Shown in pieces: positions 44,085-52,666 of a stretch of DNA of 64,000 nucleotides (position 1 is its first letter; the number at the start of each line of letters is the position of its first letter). Below the pieces are notes generated by a model. The model saw nothing but the letters and a program-made list of their open reading frames with translations, had not been told where the DNA came from and did no database searches. The translations under genes were made by a program, and so were the position numbers. Source of the stretch: Desulfosporosinus sp. FKB (lineage in GTDB: Bacteria > Bacillota > Desulfitobacteriia > Desulfitobacteriales > Desulfitobacteriaceae); the NCBI RefSeq assembly GCF_002196705.1, contig NZ_NADJ01000039.1, positions 307,631 through 371,630 on the forward strand, in the 5' to 3' direction.

Positions 44085-44344
44085 CCCGCTTTAAATGATA
44101 ACAAAGGAGGTTTGACGAAGTTGTCACCCTGATATTTGCTTATTGTAGCATATAATTTCGTTTAAGTAAATATTAGTTGTACTAATAGGAAGCTGTTCCA
44201 TAATAAGTAAACTCGTTGGCCACAAAAATACCTGCGGCTAGTTCAGTATTTGGCTGCATTTAGCTGCATCTGCCCGTGAGAGGATACCAGTACCTATTGA
44301 CAAAGGAACTCATTCCATCTAAAATTACAGTAAATTTTAAATTA

Positions 44345-44650
44345 AATCTGATGATCAGAGAAAGTAACTGATGAATATTGAAAAGCGAGCCGGCAATCGG
44401 TGAAAGGTCCGGTTCAATGGAAATCAGCGAATGGTTCTGGGAGGAGCAGGGGAAAAGAGCAATGCTTGACTATCCCGCGCCGTCTGTCCCTGCGTTATAA
44501 GGGAAGGGTATTAATACGAAGGTTTGATACCTGCGTAGCGTACCTTTGAAAGAGAGACCAGCCTACTTACTTAAGAAAGGTCGGTTTCTGAATTGGGTGG
44601 CACCGCGAGCTATATCGCCCCATATTTATGTGGGTGATATGGCTTTTTTT
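44345..44650 (+). promoter_or_regulatory. T-box riboswitch with a Trp specifier, upstream of iorA-iorB-paaK
   Basis: Stem I shows AGTAA and a specifier loop bounded by the helices CTGAT/ATCAG and CAGA/TCTG, leaving GAA-UGG-U; TGG is at 44432-44434. AG-bulge and GGTGAAAGG distal-loop features follow in the usual order. The antiterminator is GGGTGGCACCGCG (44595-44607), and the terminator is GCTATATCGCCCCA against TGGGTGATATGGC followed by a T-run (44609-44650). The bulge UGGC requires a G73 discriminator, which bacterial tRNA-Trp has and tRNA-Phe lacks. The ileS T-box in this window has UGGU, which fits A73. Confidence 0.9.
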
Positions 44651-44704
44651 GCTTTCCTTTCAGGAAACCTTTGATTTTGAAAATCTTATCAGGGAGGTAA
44701 GACT

Positions 44705-46492
44705 ATGGCATTAGAGTTATTAATGGGGAATCAGGCTATCGCTTTAGGAGCAATTCGTTCCGGAGTCGGAGTCGTTACAGGATATCCTGGTACGCCTTCA
44801 ACTGAAATTCTGGAAACAGTTGCTAAGAAGAATCCCGGCATCTATGTTGAGTGGTCTGTCAATGAAAAATCGGCGTTGGAAGTCGCCGCCGGCGCTGCCT
44901 TCGCCGGATTCCGAACCATGGTAACCATGAAACAAGTTGGACTAAACGTGGCTTCAGACCCCTTAATGAGTCTGGCTTACCTGGGTATCAAAGGAGGCAT
45001 GGTTATCGTCGTCGCCGATGACCCCGGTCCTATCTCTTCGCAGACAGAACAGGACACCCGGCATTTTGGCATTTTTGCGAAATTACCTGTCTTTGATCCA
45101 GCTTCTCCCGAAGAAGCCTATCTGATGATCGGGGATGCTTTTGAATACTCGGAGAAATATAATACTCCTGTGTTATTCCGCCCAACTACCAGAGTATGTC
45201 ATGGTTACGCCACAGTCGATCTTGAAGAAAAGCGCTTTGAAGTTAAAGCCGAGGGTTTCATTAAAGATCCCAAGTGGGCTATTTTTCCCCGGCTTTCATA
45301 TCTTAATCATTTAAAAATCGAAGCACGACAGCCTGTGCTTAGTGAGGATTTTTCGTCTTATCGCTATAATTCCGTACAGGGAAGCGGTAAAAAGGGGATT
45401 GCTGCCGGAGGAATCAGTTATGCCTATACTTGCGAAGCATTATCAAGCCTAAAGGGAGAATGCAAAGTCTTCCGCGTGGCTACACCGCATCCTTTCCCGG
45501 AGAAATTGGCCCTGGAGTTCCTGACAGGTCTTGAAGAAGTTCTCGTAATCGAAGAATTAGATCCTGTTATTGAAAAAGAGTTGGTCTATTTATGTGGAAA
45601 GCATCATTTACCTGTGAAAATCATGGGCAAGCTGACACAGCATCTACAAAATGCCGGAGAAAATTCGGTCGAATCAGTCAGTAAGGCCGTTGCTGAATTT
45701 TTACAGATCCCAATTCAGCCTGCAAAACCTTCTGAAAATATGCCCGCGCTTCCCCTCAGACCACCTGTTTTATGTGCAGGTTGTCCGCACAGAGCTTCTT
45801 TCTATGCCGTAAAACAAGCGATGAAAGGGCGAAAAGCCGTTTTCTCCGGTGACATCGGCTGCTATACGTTAGGAAATGCTAAGCCCTTGGACATGGTTGA
45901 TACGTGCCTCTGCATGGGTGCCGGTATTACCATAGCCCAAGGCCTGCATCGAGCAGAACCCGATGCGGTGAATTTCGCTTTTATTGGCGACTCTACCTTT
46001 TTCCACACGGGTATACCTGGGGTCATTAATGCCGTTTACAATGAGACAGATATTGTTCTTATTATTTTAGACAACTCAACAACTGCTATGACCGGCCACC
46101 AACCCCATCCGGGAACAGGCAAAACTATGATGGGAAACATTTCCGAAAAAATTAAGATCAGCGAAGTGCTGAAAGCACTTGGCGTTAAACATATCATAAC
46201 GATGAATCCTTTTAACCTCAAAGACTCTAGCGCAGCCGTCAAAGAGGCAGCCGCCAGCAAGGGTATATCCGCTGTTATCTTTAAATCCCCCTGCATTGCT
46301 GTTGCCGACCCGGCACCTGTCTATTCCGTTGACAGCGACAAATGTACAGGCTGTAAACTATGTATTAAGGAATTGGGATGTCCGGCTATTGTTAAAGATA
46401 ATAATAAAGTTCGAATTGATGCTTCCTTATGTTACGGCTGTTCAATATGTGCGCAAGTCTGTCCATTTAAGGCAATCGGAGGTGCAAACTAA
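44705..46492 (+). CDS. iorA: Indolepyruvate ferredoxin oxidoreductase, alpha subunit
   Basis: This 595-residue subunit binds thiamine diphosphate and two 4Fe-4S clusters. With IorB it interconverts aryl-2-oxoacids (indolepyruvate, phenylpyruvate) and aryl-CoA using ferredoxin. The N-terminal half has GVVTGYPGTPSTEIL. The TPP site is near IGDSTFFHTGIPG and LDNSTTAMTGHQPHPGTG. CAGCPHRASFYAVKQA and FSGDIGCYTLG are typical, and the C-terminal ferredoxin domain has CTGCKLC and CYGCSICAQVCP. GGGAGG precedes the ATG. It is controlled by the T-box leader. Confidence 0.96.
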   Translation: MALELLMGNQAIALGAIRSGVGVVTGYPGTPSTEILETVAKKNPGIYVEWSVNEKSALEVAAGAAFAGFRTMVTMKQVGLNVASDPLMSLAYLGIKGGMVIVVADDPGPISSQTEQDTRHFGIFAKLPVFDPASPEEAYLMIGDAFEYSEKYNTPVLFRPTTRVCHGYATVDLEEKRFEVKAEGFIKDPKWAIFPRLSYLNHLKIEARQPVLSEDFSSYRYNSVQGSGKKGIAAGGISYAYTCEALSSLKGECKVFRVATPHPFPEKLALEFLTGLEEVLVIEELDPVIEKELVYLCGKHHLPVKIMGKLTQHLQNAGENSVESVSKAVAEFLQIPIQPAKPSENMPALPLRPPVLCAGCPHRASFYAVKQAMKGRKAVFSGDIGCYTLGNAKPLDMVDTCLCMGAGITIAQGLHRAEPDAVNFAFIGDSTFFHTGIPGVINAVYNETDIVLIILDNSTTAMTGHQPHPGTGKTMMGNISEKIKISEVLKALGVKHIITMNPFNLKDSSAAVKEAAASKGISAVIFKSPCIAVADPAPVYSVDSDKCTGCKLCIKELGCPAIVKDNNKVRIDASLCYGCSICAQVCPFKAIGGAN

Positions 46493-47080
46493 ATGATTAA
46501 TTGCATTTTAGCGGGGGTCGGCGGTCAAGGTACGGTACTTGCATCGAAACTCATTGCCCAAACGGCCATGGACAAGGGTAAAAACGTCCGCACAGCGGAA
46601 ACTATAGGTATGGCACAGCGCGGCGGCTGTGTCGTCAGCCATGTTCGCATTGGTGAAGAGATTTATTCTCCTTTGGTTCCCCTCAAGTCCGCCGATGTTA
46701 TTATTGGCTTTGAGCCTGCCGAAGCGGTAAGAAGCTTGCCTTATTTAAAAGAAGAAGGAATTGTCATTGTCAGCCAAAAAGATATCAAGCCGGTTACAGA
46801 CTCTCTTGCCAACACGAATTATGAGGGAACAGAAATGCTTGACTACCTGAAAAACCATGTCAAACATCTGGTCATTATCGATGTTGAACCAATCTTCGCC
46901 GCCTGCGGCAGCACTAGAGTTTTAAATATCGCCCTGCTGGGGGCGGCGGCAGCTGCCGATGTATTCGATATTTCTTTGGCAGAAATAGAACAGACCATTG
47001 AAAAAAAATTACCGCAGCGATTTATTGCGATGAATCTAAAAGCATTGCATGCAGGCGCTAAAACCGCCATAAAGGAGTAA
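46493..47080 (+). CDS. iorB: Indolepyruvate ferredoxin oxidoreductase, beta subunit
   Basis: This 195-residue gamma-domain subunit has the pattern ILAGVGGQGTVLASKLIAQTA and ETIGMAQRGGCVVSHVRIG, which identify the beta chain of IOR. It forms a heterodimer with IorA. Its ATG directly follows the iorA stop (no gap), and the GGAGGTG inside the end of iorA is its ribosome-binding site. No catalytic residue is missing as far as can be judged. Confidence 0.96.
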   Translation: MINCILAGVGGQGTVLASKLIAQTAMDKGKNVRTAETIGMAQRGGCVVSHVRIGEEIYSPLVPLKSADVIIGFEPAEAVRSLPYLKEEGIVIVSQKDIKPVTDSLANTNYEGTEMLDYLKNHVKHLVIIDVEPIFAACGSTRVLNIALLGAAAAADVFDISLAEIEQTIEKKLPQRFIAMNLKALHAGAKTAIKE

Positions 47081-47086
47081 TTTAAA

Positions 47087-48316
47087 ATGATGAATCAGAC
47101 CCAATTTGACGCCATTAAAAAAATGCTTGTCAAACTTTCCCGAGTCGATGGGTTTTATAAGAAAAAATTTGCAGGCATCAATCTAACGGCTATTCAGAGC
47201 CAAGAGGATTTTGAAAAGCTGCCCTTTACTGACAAAGGCGATTTAAGAGAGGCCTATCCTTTAGGACTTCAGGCAGTTCCTGACAGCGAAATTGTTCGTA
47301 TTCACTCCTCTTCCGGCACGACGGGTACTCCAGTAATTATTCCCTATACAAAAAAGGATGTCGCTGATTGGGCAGAAATATTCAAACGCTGTTACGAAAC
47401 TGCCGGGTTAACCAATTTAGACCGAGTCCATATCACGCCCGGGTATGGTTTATGGACTGCAGGGATAGGTTTTCAAACCGGCGCAGAACTGTTAGGTGCC
47501 ATGGTTATTCCCATGGGACCTGGGAATACGGACAAGCAAATTCAAATGATGAAAGATTTAAAAAGTACGGTTTTATGTGCGACGTCTTCCTATGCTTTGC
47601 TTTTGGCAGAAGAAATTACCAAACGCAAAGTCAAAGATAAAATTCATCTTACTAAGGGCATCATTGGTTCAGAGCGTTGGGGAGAAAAAATGCGCCGCCG
47701 CATAGCCAATGAACTCGGAGTTCAGCTCTATGATATCTATGGTTTGACTGAAATCTACGGACCCGGCATAGCTATGAGCTGTGATCAAGAATGCGGTATG
47801 CATTATTGGGATGACTATTTCTATTTTGAAATTATTAATCATAATACCGGCGAACCGGTTCCTTTTGGGGAGATCGGTGAATTAGTTATTACAACTCTCC
47901 GAAAAGAAGGCGCTCCGCTCATTCGCTATCGCACACACGATCTGACGCGGTTCATACCGGGAGAATGTGCTTGTGGTTTAAAATATCCCAGGATCGATAC
48001 CCTGATAGGCCGAACCGACGACATGGTTAAAGTAAAAGGCACAAATATCTTTCCGGCACAAATTGATGAAATGCTGCGGGAAGTTGAAGGGGCAAGCAGT
48101 GAATATCAGGTAATTATTGACCATTTGAATGGGAAAGATATTATGACGGTGTTCTTTGAAACGGAGAATGAAGCCGATAAACGCGTCATTGAACAGAACG
48201 TCAAGCAACATTGTAAAGCAAAAATCGGAATCACTATTGTGCCAAAGGCTGTTGCCATTGGAGAGCTTCCCCGAAGTGAGAAGAAATCCACACGTATTTT
48301 CGATAACAGATATTAA
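47087..48316 (+). CDS. paaK: Phenylacetate-CoA ligase family protein
   Basis: This 409-residue adenylate-forming enzyme would activate an arylacetate (phenylacetate or indoleacetate) with ATP and CoA. Signatures are the P-loop SSSGTTGTPVIIPYTKKD, YDIYGLTEIYGPG, the RTHDLTRFIPGECACG segment and the C-terminal RSEKKSTRIFD lysine motif. It follows iorB by six bases and closes the T-box operon. With IorAB it can work in either direction; a Trp-responsive T-box favours use to make aryl-CoA for reductive carboxylation. Confidence 0.93.
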   Translation: MMNQTQFDAIKKMLVKLSRVDGFYKKKFAGINLTAIQSQEDFEKLPFTDKGDLREAYPLGLQAVPDSEIVRIHSSSGTTGTPVIIPYTKKDVADWAEIFKRCYETAGLTNLDRVHITPGYGLWTAGIGFQTGAELLGAMVIPMGPGNTDKQIQMMKDLKSTVLCATSSYALLLAEEITKRKVKDKIHLTKGIIGSERWGEKMRRRIANELGVQLYDIYGLTEIYGPGIAMSCDQECGMHYWDDYFYFEIINHNTGEPVPFGEIGELVITTLRKEGAPLIRYRTHDLTRFIPGECACGLKYPRIDTLIGRTDDMVKVKGTNIFPAQIDEMLREVEGASSEYQVIIDHLNGKDIMTVFFETENEADKRVIEQNVKQHCKAKIGITIVPKAVAIGELPRSEKKSTRIFDNRY

Positions 48317-49840: not shown

Positions 49841-50827
49841 TCAGTCAAAAAGACATTTTTTATCATAGGTGTAGCCCGCAAAATCCAAATAATTGGCTGT
49901 TTTTGCTTTCGGGCCCAATTCAACTCCCTTAAGCATCTCCTCTCTAAAGACAGGATAGCCTGTGCGATCCAGGATATAGCCGACATGTTCTTTGGGAAGA
50001 GAGCAGTCAATGTGCTTATCAATATAATCATAAAGGTTATTACACAGCCGCAGGACTGCTTCTCGTTCTGCCCATTCCAAGAATGGAGCAGCTAAACGGG
50101 GATTCTTTTTCCCGGTTCTGCCCATAACCACAACCCGATAATATTGTCCGCCCCGAGTCCAGGCACCTGTCGGACATTTCAAAACACACTCGCCGCAGCC
50201 TATACAGCGGGAAGCATCTCGTTTCACTTTATAGTTGACGATGGAAAGAGCCCCGGTAGAAACCTTGGCACAATTTTTAACACAGGCTTGACAGTTGATG
50301 CAGCGCTGGGCATCGTAAAGTGGTTCAACCTGACCGATAATGCCGATATCATGCATATGAACTTTTACGCAGTCATTGGGGCAGCCGGTGACTGCGATTT
50401 TAACGTGGGGATTATTAGGATAAATAATTTTCTCGATATCCTTAGCTAAAGCCGTCGTATCGAACACAGCATTAGTACAAACTTTATTGCCGATACAGGC
50501 TACCACATTTCGTGTCCCAGCCGCAGGATAACCCTGGGCAGGCTGCTCAAGAAGTACCCCGATATTAACTTCCAGTTCCTCAAGAAATGGTACGAGAAGA
50601 ACATTAATTTCCTTCATATGCTCAAAAGGGATAGCGGGAATTTCAAAGCCTTGTCTTGTCGTGAGGTGAACTTCCCCATTGCCGAAGCGTTCAGCTATTT
50701 CCTGGATCAGCGGAAGCAGCTTTACCGGCAAATGACCTCCGGGTACCCTGAGACGCAGACAGGTAAGATTTCTGTCTTTCGTAATCCGCCAGGCATTTTT
50801 CATAACTTTTTTTGTATTAATTGTCAT
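49841..50827 (-). CDS. asrC: Anaerobic sulfite reductase subunit C
   Basis: This 328-residue subunit carries the siroheme and [4Fe-4S] active site that reduces sulfite to sulfide. The siroheme-binding Cys pattern is visible in CIGNKVC and TGCPNDC, and an inserted 2[4Fe-4S] ferredoxin domain has CINCQACVKNC and CIGCGECVLKCP. Its length fits Salmonella AsrC. It is the last gene of asrABC, 14 bases after asrB. Confidence 0.95.
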   Translation of the reverse strand: MTINTKKVMKNAWRITKDRNLTCLRLRVPGGHLPVKLLPLIQEIAERFGNGEVHLTTRQGFEIPAIPFEHMKEINVLLVPFLEELEVNIGVLLEQPAQGYPAAGTRNVVACIGNKVCTNAVFDTTALAKDIEKIIYPNNPHVKIAVTGCPNDCVKVHMHDIGIIGQVEPLYDAQRCINCQACVKNCAKVSTGALSIVNYKVKRDASRCIGCGECVLKCPTGAWTRGGQYYRVVVMGRTGKKNPRLAAPFLEWAEREAVLRLCNNLYDYIDKHIDCSLPKEHVGYILDRTGYPVFREEMLKGVELGPKAKTANYLDFAGYTYDKKCLFD

Positions 50828-50841
50828 CTTAATCCCTCCAA

Positions 50842-51663
50842 CTAATCCAAGAGAGTTTGCGCTTGAGCAAAATTAAATACCGGCCCTTCCAAACATACAT
50901 ACGTTTCGTCAATCTTGCAATGACCGCATTTGCCGAGACCGCAGGACATTTTGCGTTCAAAAGAGACCCAGATACTCTCTTTGGCTAAGCCTCTGCACAG
51001 GAATTCTTGAGCAGTGAATTTCATCATGACCGGCGGACCAACGATGATAACCCGCACATCTTCCAGGGAGGGTATCTCTACATCCGGAATCAAAGCAGTA
51101 ATTAGACCTGTTCTGCGGCTGCAGGAATTGGCGATTACTTCGAGGTTTCCAAACTCATCAAGTTTATCAACAGTAACTTCAACTCTGAACGTTTGGGCCC
51201 ATTTATCTAAGTCACATTTAAACAAAACGTCGTTAGGGGTTTTAAATCCGGTTAAAATATCGCACCGTTGCAAAAGCTCCGGACGAGCATAGAAGTAATT
51301 AATGACACTTTTGACAGGAGCAAGTCCTGTTCCACCTGCGGCGATAATCAAATGTTTATCGTAAAAGGACTCCAGAGGAAACCCATTCCCATAAGGGCCT
51401 CGCAGGAAAAGATAATCTCCCGGAACTAGCTTATCAATACCCCCTGTCACCTGGCCAACCCTGCGAATGGTCATTTCAATATAGCCATCCCCAAAGTCAC
51501 TGATGGAAATTGGACATTCCCCGACTCCGGGAAGGGAAACTTCCATAAATTGACCAGCAATGGGTTGTATCTGGCACTCTAAACGGTAGGTCCAATCCAG
51601 TTCAGTCTGTTGATATTTAGCGAGAATTTTAGCCTTAAAGGGTAAATAGCTGTTTTTAGCCAC
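50842..51663 (-). CDS. asrB: Anaerobic sulfite reductase subunit B
   Basis: This 273-residue flavoprotein binds FAD and NAD(P)H and passes electrons to AsrA/AsrC. Ferredoxin-reductase-like motifs are RGPYGNGFPL, IIAAGGTGLAPVKSVI and the C-terminal CGLGKCGHC cluster region. I start at GTG 51663, where GAGGAGG in the end of asrA gives good spacing and the length equals known AsrB. The longer frame to 51771 overlaps asrA and is not used. The GTG overlaps the asrA stop (GTGGCTAA). Confidence 0.95.
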   Translation of the reverse strand: MAKNSYLPFKAKILAKYQQTELDWTYRLECQIQPIAGQFMEVSLPGVGECPISISDFGDGYIEMTIRRVGQVTGGIDKLVPGDYLFLRGPYGNGFPLESFYDKHLIIAAGGTGLAPVKSVINYFYARPELLQRCDILTGFKTPNDVLFKCDLDKWAQTFRVEVTVDKLDEFGNLEVIANSCSRRTGLITALIPDVEIPSLEDVRVIIVGPPVMMKFTAQEFLCRGLAKESIWVSFERKMSCGLGKCGHCKIDETYVCLEGPVFNFAQAQTLLD

Positions 51664-52666
51664 GGTTTTCTGCCTCCTCTTTGCCCAGGCGGTCGATGCA
51701 GTGAGCCAAGGAGATATATTCGGGACAGGCATTGTCACAACGTCCGCATCCGACACACATATGAACTCCAAATCTCTGTTTAAAGTCTTTTATTTTGTGC
51801 ATAACCTTGAAACGCATCCGCTCTCCATTATTACGGCGAAAGCTGTGCCCCCCGGCCATATCTGTAAAACCATCGATCTGGCAGCTGGCCCAAACCCGAC
51901 GTCTCTCTCCGCACTTGGGGTTATCGTCATAGAAAATATCCTGCATTGTATAACAACTACAGCTGGGACAGACGACAGTACAGCGTCCGCAGGCAATACA
52001 GCGTGAACCATACTCCTCCCAGATAGGGTTTGCAGCCACTGATTCAAGGACCAGATTTTCCGGAACCTTAACTGATTGCTTATTACTCTCAACAAACTTA
52101 GGAGACACCTCAATCGTCTCACCATGGAAAGCAAACAGTCCTTCAATGTCTTCTTTGACATCACTTAGATAAACACCGTTCTCTAAGCGAACAGATGCGC
52201 TGTAGTTCTCAGTCTTATTTGTCCCCATACTGACACAAAAACAACTGTCAAAGCTCTCCTGACAATCCATAACAATCATCTTTAGTTTGTTTCTCAGTCT
52301 CTCATAGTAATAATCCGCAGAGGGACCGTTTTCTAACATTATTTTATCCAGACGTTCTACCGCCTGTATGTCACAAGCACGCAAGAAAACAATCATACCT
52401 TTTTCATCAACAACAGATTCACTAAAACCGTTTTCATTAAAATAGAAAAGTCTCTGAGTAACAGGATAAAAGGTTTCTTTAGGAGAAAAATAGGATTTTT
52501 GGTTAAAGACAACGTCTTCAATTTTTGAGATTTCAGCATACCCGACCAAATCGGTATCGGAAAACTTGCCTTTGCCTTTTAATAACGTCGGAGCATAGAC
52601 TCGGTACTTTTCCCTCAGACTCTCAAGAAGCTGATTAAACGCCGCGGCGGTAAACCTATAGCCCAA
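51656..52666 (-). CDS. asrA: Anaerobic sulfite reductase subunit A
   Basis: This 336-residue iron-sulfur subunit has two C-terminal 4Fe-4S motifs, CIACGRCTVVCPSC and CVGCGRCDNACPEY. Upstream is the RACDIQAVERLD segment seen in AsrA and hydrogenase beta-like chains. It starts the asr operon, and a 16-bp palindrome 66-81 bases upstream is a candidate redox operator. Confidence 0.95.
   Translation of the reverse strand: MGYRFTAAAFNQLLESLREKYRVYAPTLLKGKGKFSDTDLVGYAEISKIEDVVFNQKSYFSPKETFYPVTQRLFYFNENGFSESVVDEKGMIVFLRACDIQAVERLDKIMLENGPSADYYYERLRNKLKMIVMDCQESFDSCFCVSMGTNKTENYSASVRLENGVYLSDVKEDIEGLFAFHGETIEVSPKFVESNKQSVKVPENLVLESVAANPIWEEYGSRCIACGRCTVVCPSCSCYTMQDIFYDDNPKCGERRRVWASCQIDGFTDMAGGHSFRRNNGERMRFKVMHKIKDFKQRFGVHMCVGCGRCDNACPEYISLAHCIDRLGKEEAENRG

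Follow-up and report, generated by a model that had tools for sequence, protein, structure and literature searches.

Why would a bacterium place genes that are usually filed under amino acid breakdown behind a switch that responds to a lack of the amino acid? The question is raised by the operon iorA-iorB-paaK of Desulfosporosinus sp. FKB, which lies in the stretch of 64,000 nucleotides analysed here (the window; contig NZ_NADJ01000039.1, positions 307,631 to 371,630 of the forward strand). The indolepyruvate ferredoxin oxidoreductase (IOR) encoded by iorA and iorB is usually annotated as catabolic, and T-box leaders such as the one found before iorA raise expression when their cognate tRNA is uncharged. 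Since the T-box activates in the presence of uncharged tRNA, a Trp-degrading set of genes placed under its control would worsen starvation, while one that works in the reductive sense would ease it. The sequence evidence makes it likely that iorA-iorB-paaK, under the control of a Trp T-box, makes tryptophan reductively from indoleacetate.

The preliminary description of the window, made from the letters alone, had proposed a T-box leader before iorA-iorB-paaK. The covariance model RF00230 of Rfam matches this leader over its entire length (Table 1), with a score that does not reach the gathering score of 93 bits. The default Rfam scan of the window therefore lists the T-box of ileS alone. The gathering score is also missed by 8 of the 19 T-boxes of the host genome, among the matches listed, including those of trpE and tyrS (the whole-genome search scored 150 of 217 candidates in the host, G000, and 129 of 202 in genome G014). 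The ior leader has the UGGN bulge and the mutually exclusive antiterminator and terminator that characterize RF00230. The stability of the terminator, computed for 44607-44645, is matched by none of 200 shuffles, and none of 100 shuffles is as stable as the leader as a whole (z −4.6). The segment 44590-44625 has the expected shape of the antiterminator fold, yet its stability does not exceed that of shuffles (z −0.2). A simple consensus scan omits the terminator, whose stem carries a bulged base. Between 44100 and 48700 there are 15 consensus matches to a promoter, against 8.7 expected, and the promoter-like sequence scores highest among them; both of its hexamers are kept, with one change in one, in the two other aligned leaders that cover the promoter region. 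An alignment of four leaders of the genus has a mean identity of 82%; in it the T-box sequence is invariant, as is the specifier loop on its 3' side.

Table 1. Elements of the ior leader and genes of the operon, in positions of the window.
Feature	Position	Strand	Basis
Sigma-70 type promoter-like sequence, TTGACA-17-TAAAAT	44297-44325	+	Consensus scan, 11/12 positions
Trp-type T-box leader, stem I to antiterminator	44342-44625	+	RF00230, 88.5 bits, E 6.5e-20, model positions 1-219; identical match in whole-genome search
5' strand CAGA of the helix under the specifier loop	44356-44359	+	Pairs with UCUG 44436-44439
Specifier UGG (Trp)	44432-44434	+	Between GAA 44429-44431 and UCUG 44436-44439; Rfam alignment
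Antiterminator bulge UGGC	44598-44601	+	Can pair with the G73-CCA end of tRNA-Trp
Intrinsic terminator with U run, bases common to antiterminator	44607-44650	+	−23.8 kcal/mol, z −6.9
iorA, IOR alpha subunit	44705-46492	+	TIGR03336, 750.9 bits (cut-off 650.9)
iorB, IOR beta subunit	46493-47080	+	TIGR03334, 169.7 bits (cut-off 205.8); PF01558, 138.8 bits, over its cut-off
paaK-like aryl-CoA ligase	47087-48316	+	TIGR02155, 380.2 bits (cut-off 646.3)

The specifier loop had been read as GAA-UGG-U, with UGG as the codon of tryptophan. In the Rfam alignment one column is deleted after GAA and UGG is set into the three specifier columns; no other codon is placed there. TBDB counts back from the 3' end of the specifier bulge and takes bases 2-4 as the specifier (PMC7778990); for the ior leader this rule also gives UGG. 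The same geometry, [GA]AA-UGG-N-helix, is common to the host's T-boxes on trpS (L001), trpE (L014) and aroF, which encodes a DAHP (3-deoxy-D-arabino-heptulosonate 7-phosphate) synthase (L009). UGG is placed in the same way in the leader of another species of the genus (G059, L329; 92.4 bits).

A pattern search for tRNA-Trp in the host gave 11 matches, four of which are tRNA-Trp-like. Only one of these is called as a gene by ARAGORN, and it ends in G73-CCA, as had been supposed, and not in A73. Specifier and bulge fit this one tRNA, UGG with the anticodon CCA and UGGC with G73. The bulge had also been used as an argument for tryptophan; the pairing of UGGC with G73 stands, but the bulge base by itself is weak evidence, because the host's own trpS T-box has UGGU and because U is found in 46% of the Trp T-boxes with G73 tRNAs, according to TBDB (PMC7778990). 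The T-box of ileS that had served as internal control (AUC, UGGU) is real and lies at 9098-8872 (gene named by eye). Altogether, the ior leader is almost certainly a Trp T-box.

The three other tRNA-Trp-like matches are copies of the 3' end of the tRNA-Trp gene. The intact gene and then the three copies stand at positions 303250, 347975, 367213 and 383352 of one contig (G000:C32; L106-L109), with at least two of the copies near recombinase-like reading frames (by eye); this looks like tandem integrative elements in tRNA-Trp. The host genome also has two DAHP synthase genes with differing T-boxes, apparently Phe (UUC) for one (L008, named by eye) and Trp (UGG) for the other (L009), which is apparently a control of isoenzymes by different end products.

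The three genes of the operon are separated by gaps of 0 to 6 bases. The product of iorA, the sole full-length match in the 5.1 Mb host genome and the only one of 28 matches over the cut-off, carries the domains PF02775, PF01855 and PF00037, all above cut-off (thiamine pyrophosphate and 4Fe-4S domains). It is 96% identical to the IorA of locus L020 (genus of Desulfosporosinus acididurans M1), and a genome of the same genus (G058) carries the same locus. No solved structure related to IorA was found at E 1e-20. The nearest solved relatives of PaaK by sequence are the phenylacetate-CoA ligases 4r1l and 2y27. Like IorB, PaaK is a clear relative that scores under its equivalog cut-off, here that of TIGR02155, and it is therefore called PaaK-like.

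According to the proposed mechanism, uncharged tRNA-Trp would bind the leader at two places, with its anticodon CCA at the specifier UGG and with its terminal GCCA at the bulge UGGC. This pairing would stabilise the antiterminator, and RNA polymerase would read on into iorA-iorB-paaK. PaaK would then convert indole-3-acetate into indoleacetyl-CoA, IorAB would produce indolepyruvate from indoleacetyl-CoA, CO2 and reduced ferredoxin, and an aminotransferase would convert indolepyruvate into tryptophan. We infer the switching itself, the identity of the substrate, the reductive direction and the transamination step. The presence of paaK in the same operon fits this scheme, in that its product would make the CoA thioester needed by a reductive IOR. 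Judged by its kinship, the host is presumably a strict anaerobe, with reduced ferredoxin and CO2 at hand. Methanococcus maripaludis is reported to build aromatic amino acids from aryl acids in an IOR-dependent way, with IOR working in the reductive sense (PMC4162585, PMC3462420). Literature searches for reductive use of IOR gave these two papers on archaea and nothing else of relevance. The system described here differs in that it is bacterial, has an aryl-CoA ligase in the operon and a putative switch that responds to tRNA-Trp, and is a prediction from sequence.

The anabolic role, which the preliminary description had favoured, gains support from three observations: the Trp T-box recurs on ior across lineages, the other T-boxes kept as Trp in four further hosts, like those with UGG in the Desulfosporosinus host, precede genes for Trp or aromatic synthesis, uptake or charging, and seven hosts lack the last genes of tryptophan synthesis while the Phe branch is kept.

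The preliminary description had also called for a search of related genomes for T-boxes before ior-paaK. In a species-level collection of genomes, 540 relatives of iorA were confirmed, of which the best 80 were kept as named loci. A T-box-like motif is present within 700 bases upstream in 23 of these 80 loci; 20 are real on inspection and the other three (L026, L028 and L091) were dropped as chance matches. All 21 ior T-boxes (these 20 and that of the window) have UGG at the specifier position, 19 as read by a script and two by eye (L041, which the script misplaced, and L032, which it missed); the script sought UGG only and is thus a test of presence, unable to return another codon. The bulge base is C in 6 and U in 15 of the 21, never A or G. 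The hosts belong to seven named families, Desulfitobacteriaceae, Clostridiaceae, Oscillospiraceae, Acutalibacteraceae, Lachnospiraceae, Sporomusaceae and Cellulosilyticaceae. A relative of paaK stands behind iorA in all 20 T-box loci. On a quick version of the IorA tree, the T-box label requires 11 changes, at least 7 of which are forced by well-supported branches, which implies that the switch was repeatedly gained or lost while UGG was retained.

Linkage to paaK does not mark the T-box loci among the 80 (20/20 with T-box, 54/56 without, and four more without room). A class sample was drawn from the window's class, where 75 genomes gave 100 other iorA matches, by taking 80 of these in order of score. 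Here the contrast is small: a T-box is found at 3/21 places with a paaK relative against 0/57 without (Fisher p 0.017; two without room). Two of the three T-boxes are in genomes counted before, and among the 21 paaK relatives a few reach only 37-42% identity. All three T-boxes of this sample lie in paaK-linked operons. Where no T-box was detected (60 loci), leader-peptide attenuators were considered as another Trp control; 6 of the 60 have short reading frames rich in Trp, which share no pattern, and this candidate was dropped. Before the ior genes of [Clostridium] fimetarium (L022:3580-4000), a terminator and part of an antiterminator are seen, while stem I is absent (by eye; nhmmer E 0.03), accompanied by a promoter-like segment and by three short repeats that resemble one another (by eye). 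This leader looks like the remnant of a decayed T-box.

The other Trp T-boxes of the hosts indicate which genes such a switch usually controls. In four further hosts, 80 T-boxes were found, 15 of which were flagged as Trp and 13 kept. Each host has one kept Trp T-box on ior, and the nine others precede trpS and trpP in Clostridium thermopalmarium, trpX and trpB2 in Caproiciproducens galactitolivorans, trpE and trpX in Parasporobacterium paucivorans, and trpD, trpB2 and trpP in Sporomusa ovata (the two trpX matches are under the NCBIfam cut-off, and trpP is named by Pfam alone). The flagging script sought UGG only, Trp T-boxes with other flanks may be missed, and the genes were read from the first long reading frame only. 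The two dropped T-boxes stand before glyS (L166, bulge A) and an Asp-tRNA(Asn) ligase gene (L199); they were rejected by gene, and L166 also by its bulge, which is partly circular. In the Desulfosporosinus host, UGG is read before trpS, trpE, aroF and ior. No catabolic gene was found among the targets of the Trp T-boxes that were flagged and kept in the four further hosts, or of the UGG T-boxes of the Desulfosporosinus host.

Indole-3-glycerol phosphate synthase (IGPS) is absent above the cut-off in 10 of the 20 T-box hosts, and in 7 of the 20 neither IGPS nor canonical TrpB nor TrpA scores above cut-off. In each of these seven, trpS and prephenate dehydratase are present, and EPSP (5-enolpyruvylshikimate-3-phosphate) synthase is above cut-off in six. 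The searches for trpA and prephenate dehydratase covered 13 genomes, which do not include any of the 30 comparison genomes that have no T-box. Three of the seven hosts are isolates, Clostridium thermopalmarium DSM 5974 and two Caproiciproducens strains. In one of the latter two, a Trp T-box precedes the gene of a TrpB2-type protein. Long TrpB matches of equal size, but under the cut-off, are present in the other strain and in two metagenome-assembled genomes (G004 and G008), and these are probably TrpB2 as well. In C. thermopalmarium, a transporter is under a Trp T-box, and the import of tryptophan would therefore be another source.

Several observations weigh against the reductive synthesis of tryptophan as the role of the operon. 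No T-box was detected in 60 of the 80 iorA loci, 54 of which have paaK (L030 and L074 offer fewer than 300 bases upstream). In the class sample, 3 of the 80 places have a T-box, and for two of the three the genome had been counted before. The nhmmer model used was built from T-boxes that it then found, its independent parts being the class sample and the control, 80 coding stretches in which it has 0 matches; it may miss other T-box types, and the motif matches at L295 and L304 have no Rfam match. Of the seven hosts that lack the last Trp genes, four are metagenome-assembled genomes, which are possibly incomplete. IGPS is missing about as often without T-box (11/30) as with it (10/20), no clear difference, and the T-box is therefore no specific mark of auxotrophs; IGPS absence was also dropped as a sign by which to tell T-box loci. 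In Desulfosporosinus sp. FKB, salvage would be merely supplementary, because trpA, trpB and the IGPS gene are kept. Finally, the substrate is not fixed by sequence, since IorB and PaaK are under their equivalog cut-offs.

Other explanations can be considered in the light of these data. The operon could be a general aryl-acid module that makes Phe, Tyr and Trp from phenylacetate, 4-hydroxyphenylacetate and indoleacetate, tryptophan providing merely the signal. The kinship of PaaK with phenylacetate-CoA ligases agrees with it, as does an AMP-binding acid ligase of Sporomusa ovata that is preceded by a T-box reading Tyr (by eye, in the Rfam alignment), relatives of which adjoin ior or sit within a few kb of it in several genomes belonging to the window's class. 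This explanation is unlikely, as UGG occupies the specifier position in all 21 ior T-boxes, and prephenate dehydratase is retained in the seven hosts that lack the last Trp genes, so that they do not need the ior route for Phe. The T-box of Sporomusa (L230:7717-11175 and L203) has GAAA-UAC-A (Tyr, by eye) and the bulge UGGU, and stands before the AMP-binding acid-CoA ligase and a CstA-type transporter. A Tyr-type T-box is not a general rule for such ligases: 12 of 17 ligase places were scanned, and the T-box was found in Sporomusa alone. In another species of the window's genus (G062; L243 and L328), a relative of the Sporomusa-type ligase lies directly before iorAB-paaK, and no T-box was found there.

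Alternatively, the operon could be oxidative and convert tryptophan into indoleacetate with a gain of ATP or reduced ferredoxin, the T-box being fortuitous or its control inverted. Such a role would agree with the usual annotation of IOR, and Paradesulfitobacterium (L027) has a close iorAB that lacks paaK, has no detected T-box and lies behind what look like genes of an acyl-CoA dehydrogenase and a CoA-transferase (by eye). But burning tryptophan when it is short would be self-defeating, the association with the T-box recurs across families, and the other kept Trp T-boxes precede genes of synthesis, uptake or charging, which makes the oxidative operon very improbable. The specifier could also be read one base later, as GGU (Gly), to which the ileS register (GAA-N-NNN) would lead if counted from GAA alone; the +1 codon is GGN in all ior T-boxes, the last two bases of the Trp codon being GG. 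This reading can practically be dismissed, since the Rfam model and the TBDB rule (PMC7778990) both give UGG, the geometry is identical in the host's trpS, trpE and aroF T-boxes, and the host T-box before glyQ (named by eye) has the bulge UGGA while ior bulges have C or U.

If the reductive synthesis of tryptophan is retained, a wider proposal can be made, in which our confidence is somewhat less than even. In some anaerobic Bacillota without the last Trp genes, iorAB-paaK may be the only route that makes tryptophan, from indoleacetate that is released by neighbours and carboxylated with CO2 and reduced ferredoxin. The Tyr-type T-box before the acid-CoA ligase of Sporomusa would be a sister case, with 4-hydroxyphenylacetate. 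If this is true, the hunger for tryptophan is met by a CO2-fixing, cross-feeding route that is switched by tRNA-Trp. The reductive reading of the operon gives a gene set usually assigned to breakdown a physiological direction that can be tested, and it predicts which anaerobes consume, and do not produce, indoleacetate. Predictions of auxotrophy from genomes that count the chorismate route alone would err for such organisms.

The ior leader resembles the known Trp-class T-boxes (RF00230; leaders of trpS, trpE and trpP) in its stem I, UGG, UGGC bulge, antiterminator and terminator, and in the G73 of the host's tRNA-Trp; it differs from them in that it controls iorAB-paaK. The operon shares the enzyme family TIGR03336 with the oxidative, catabolic IOR known from anaerobes, from which it differs by its starvation-type control and by the acid-activating ligase that it holds. 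T-boxes and reductive IOR are each known, and a Trp T-box joined to iorAB-paaK was not found in the literature searched, with two older T-box surveys and the TBDB tables lying outside that search.

Elsewhere in the window, three genes on the minus strand, at 49841-52666, resemble an operon for anaerobic sulfite reductase (asrCBA; naming by eye only).

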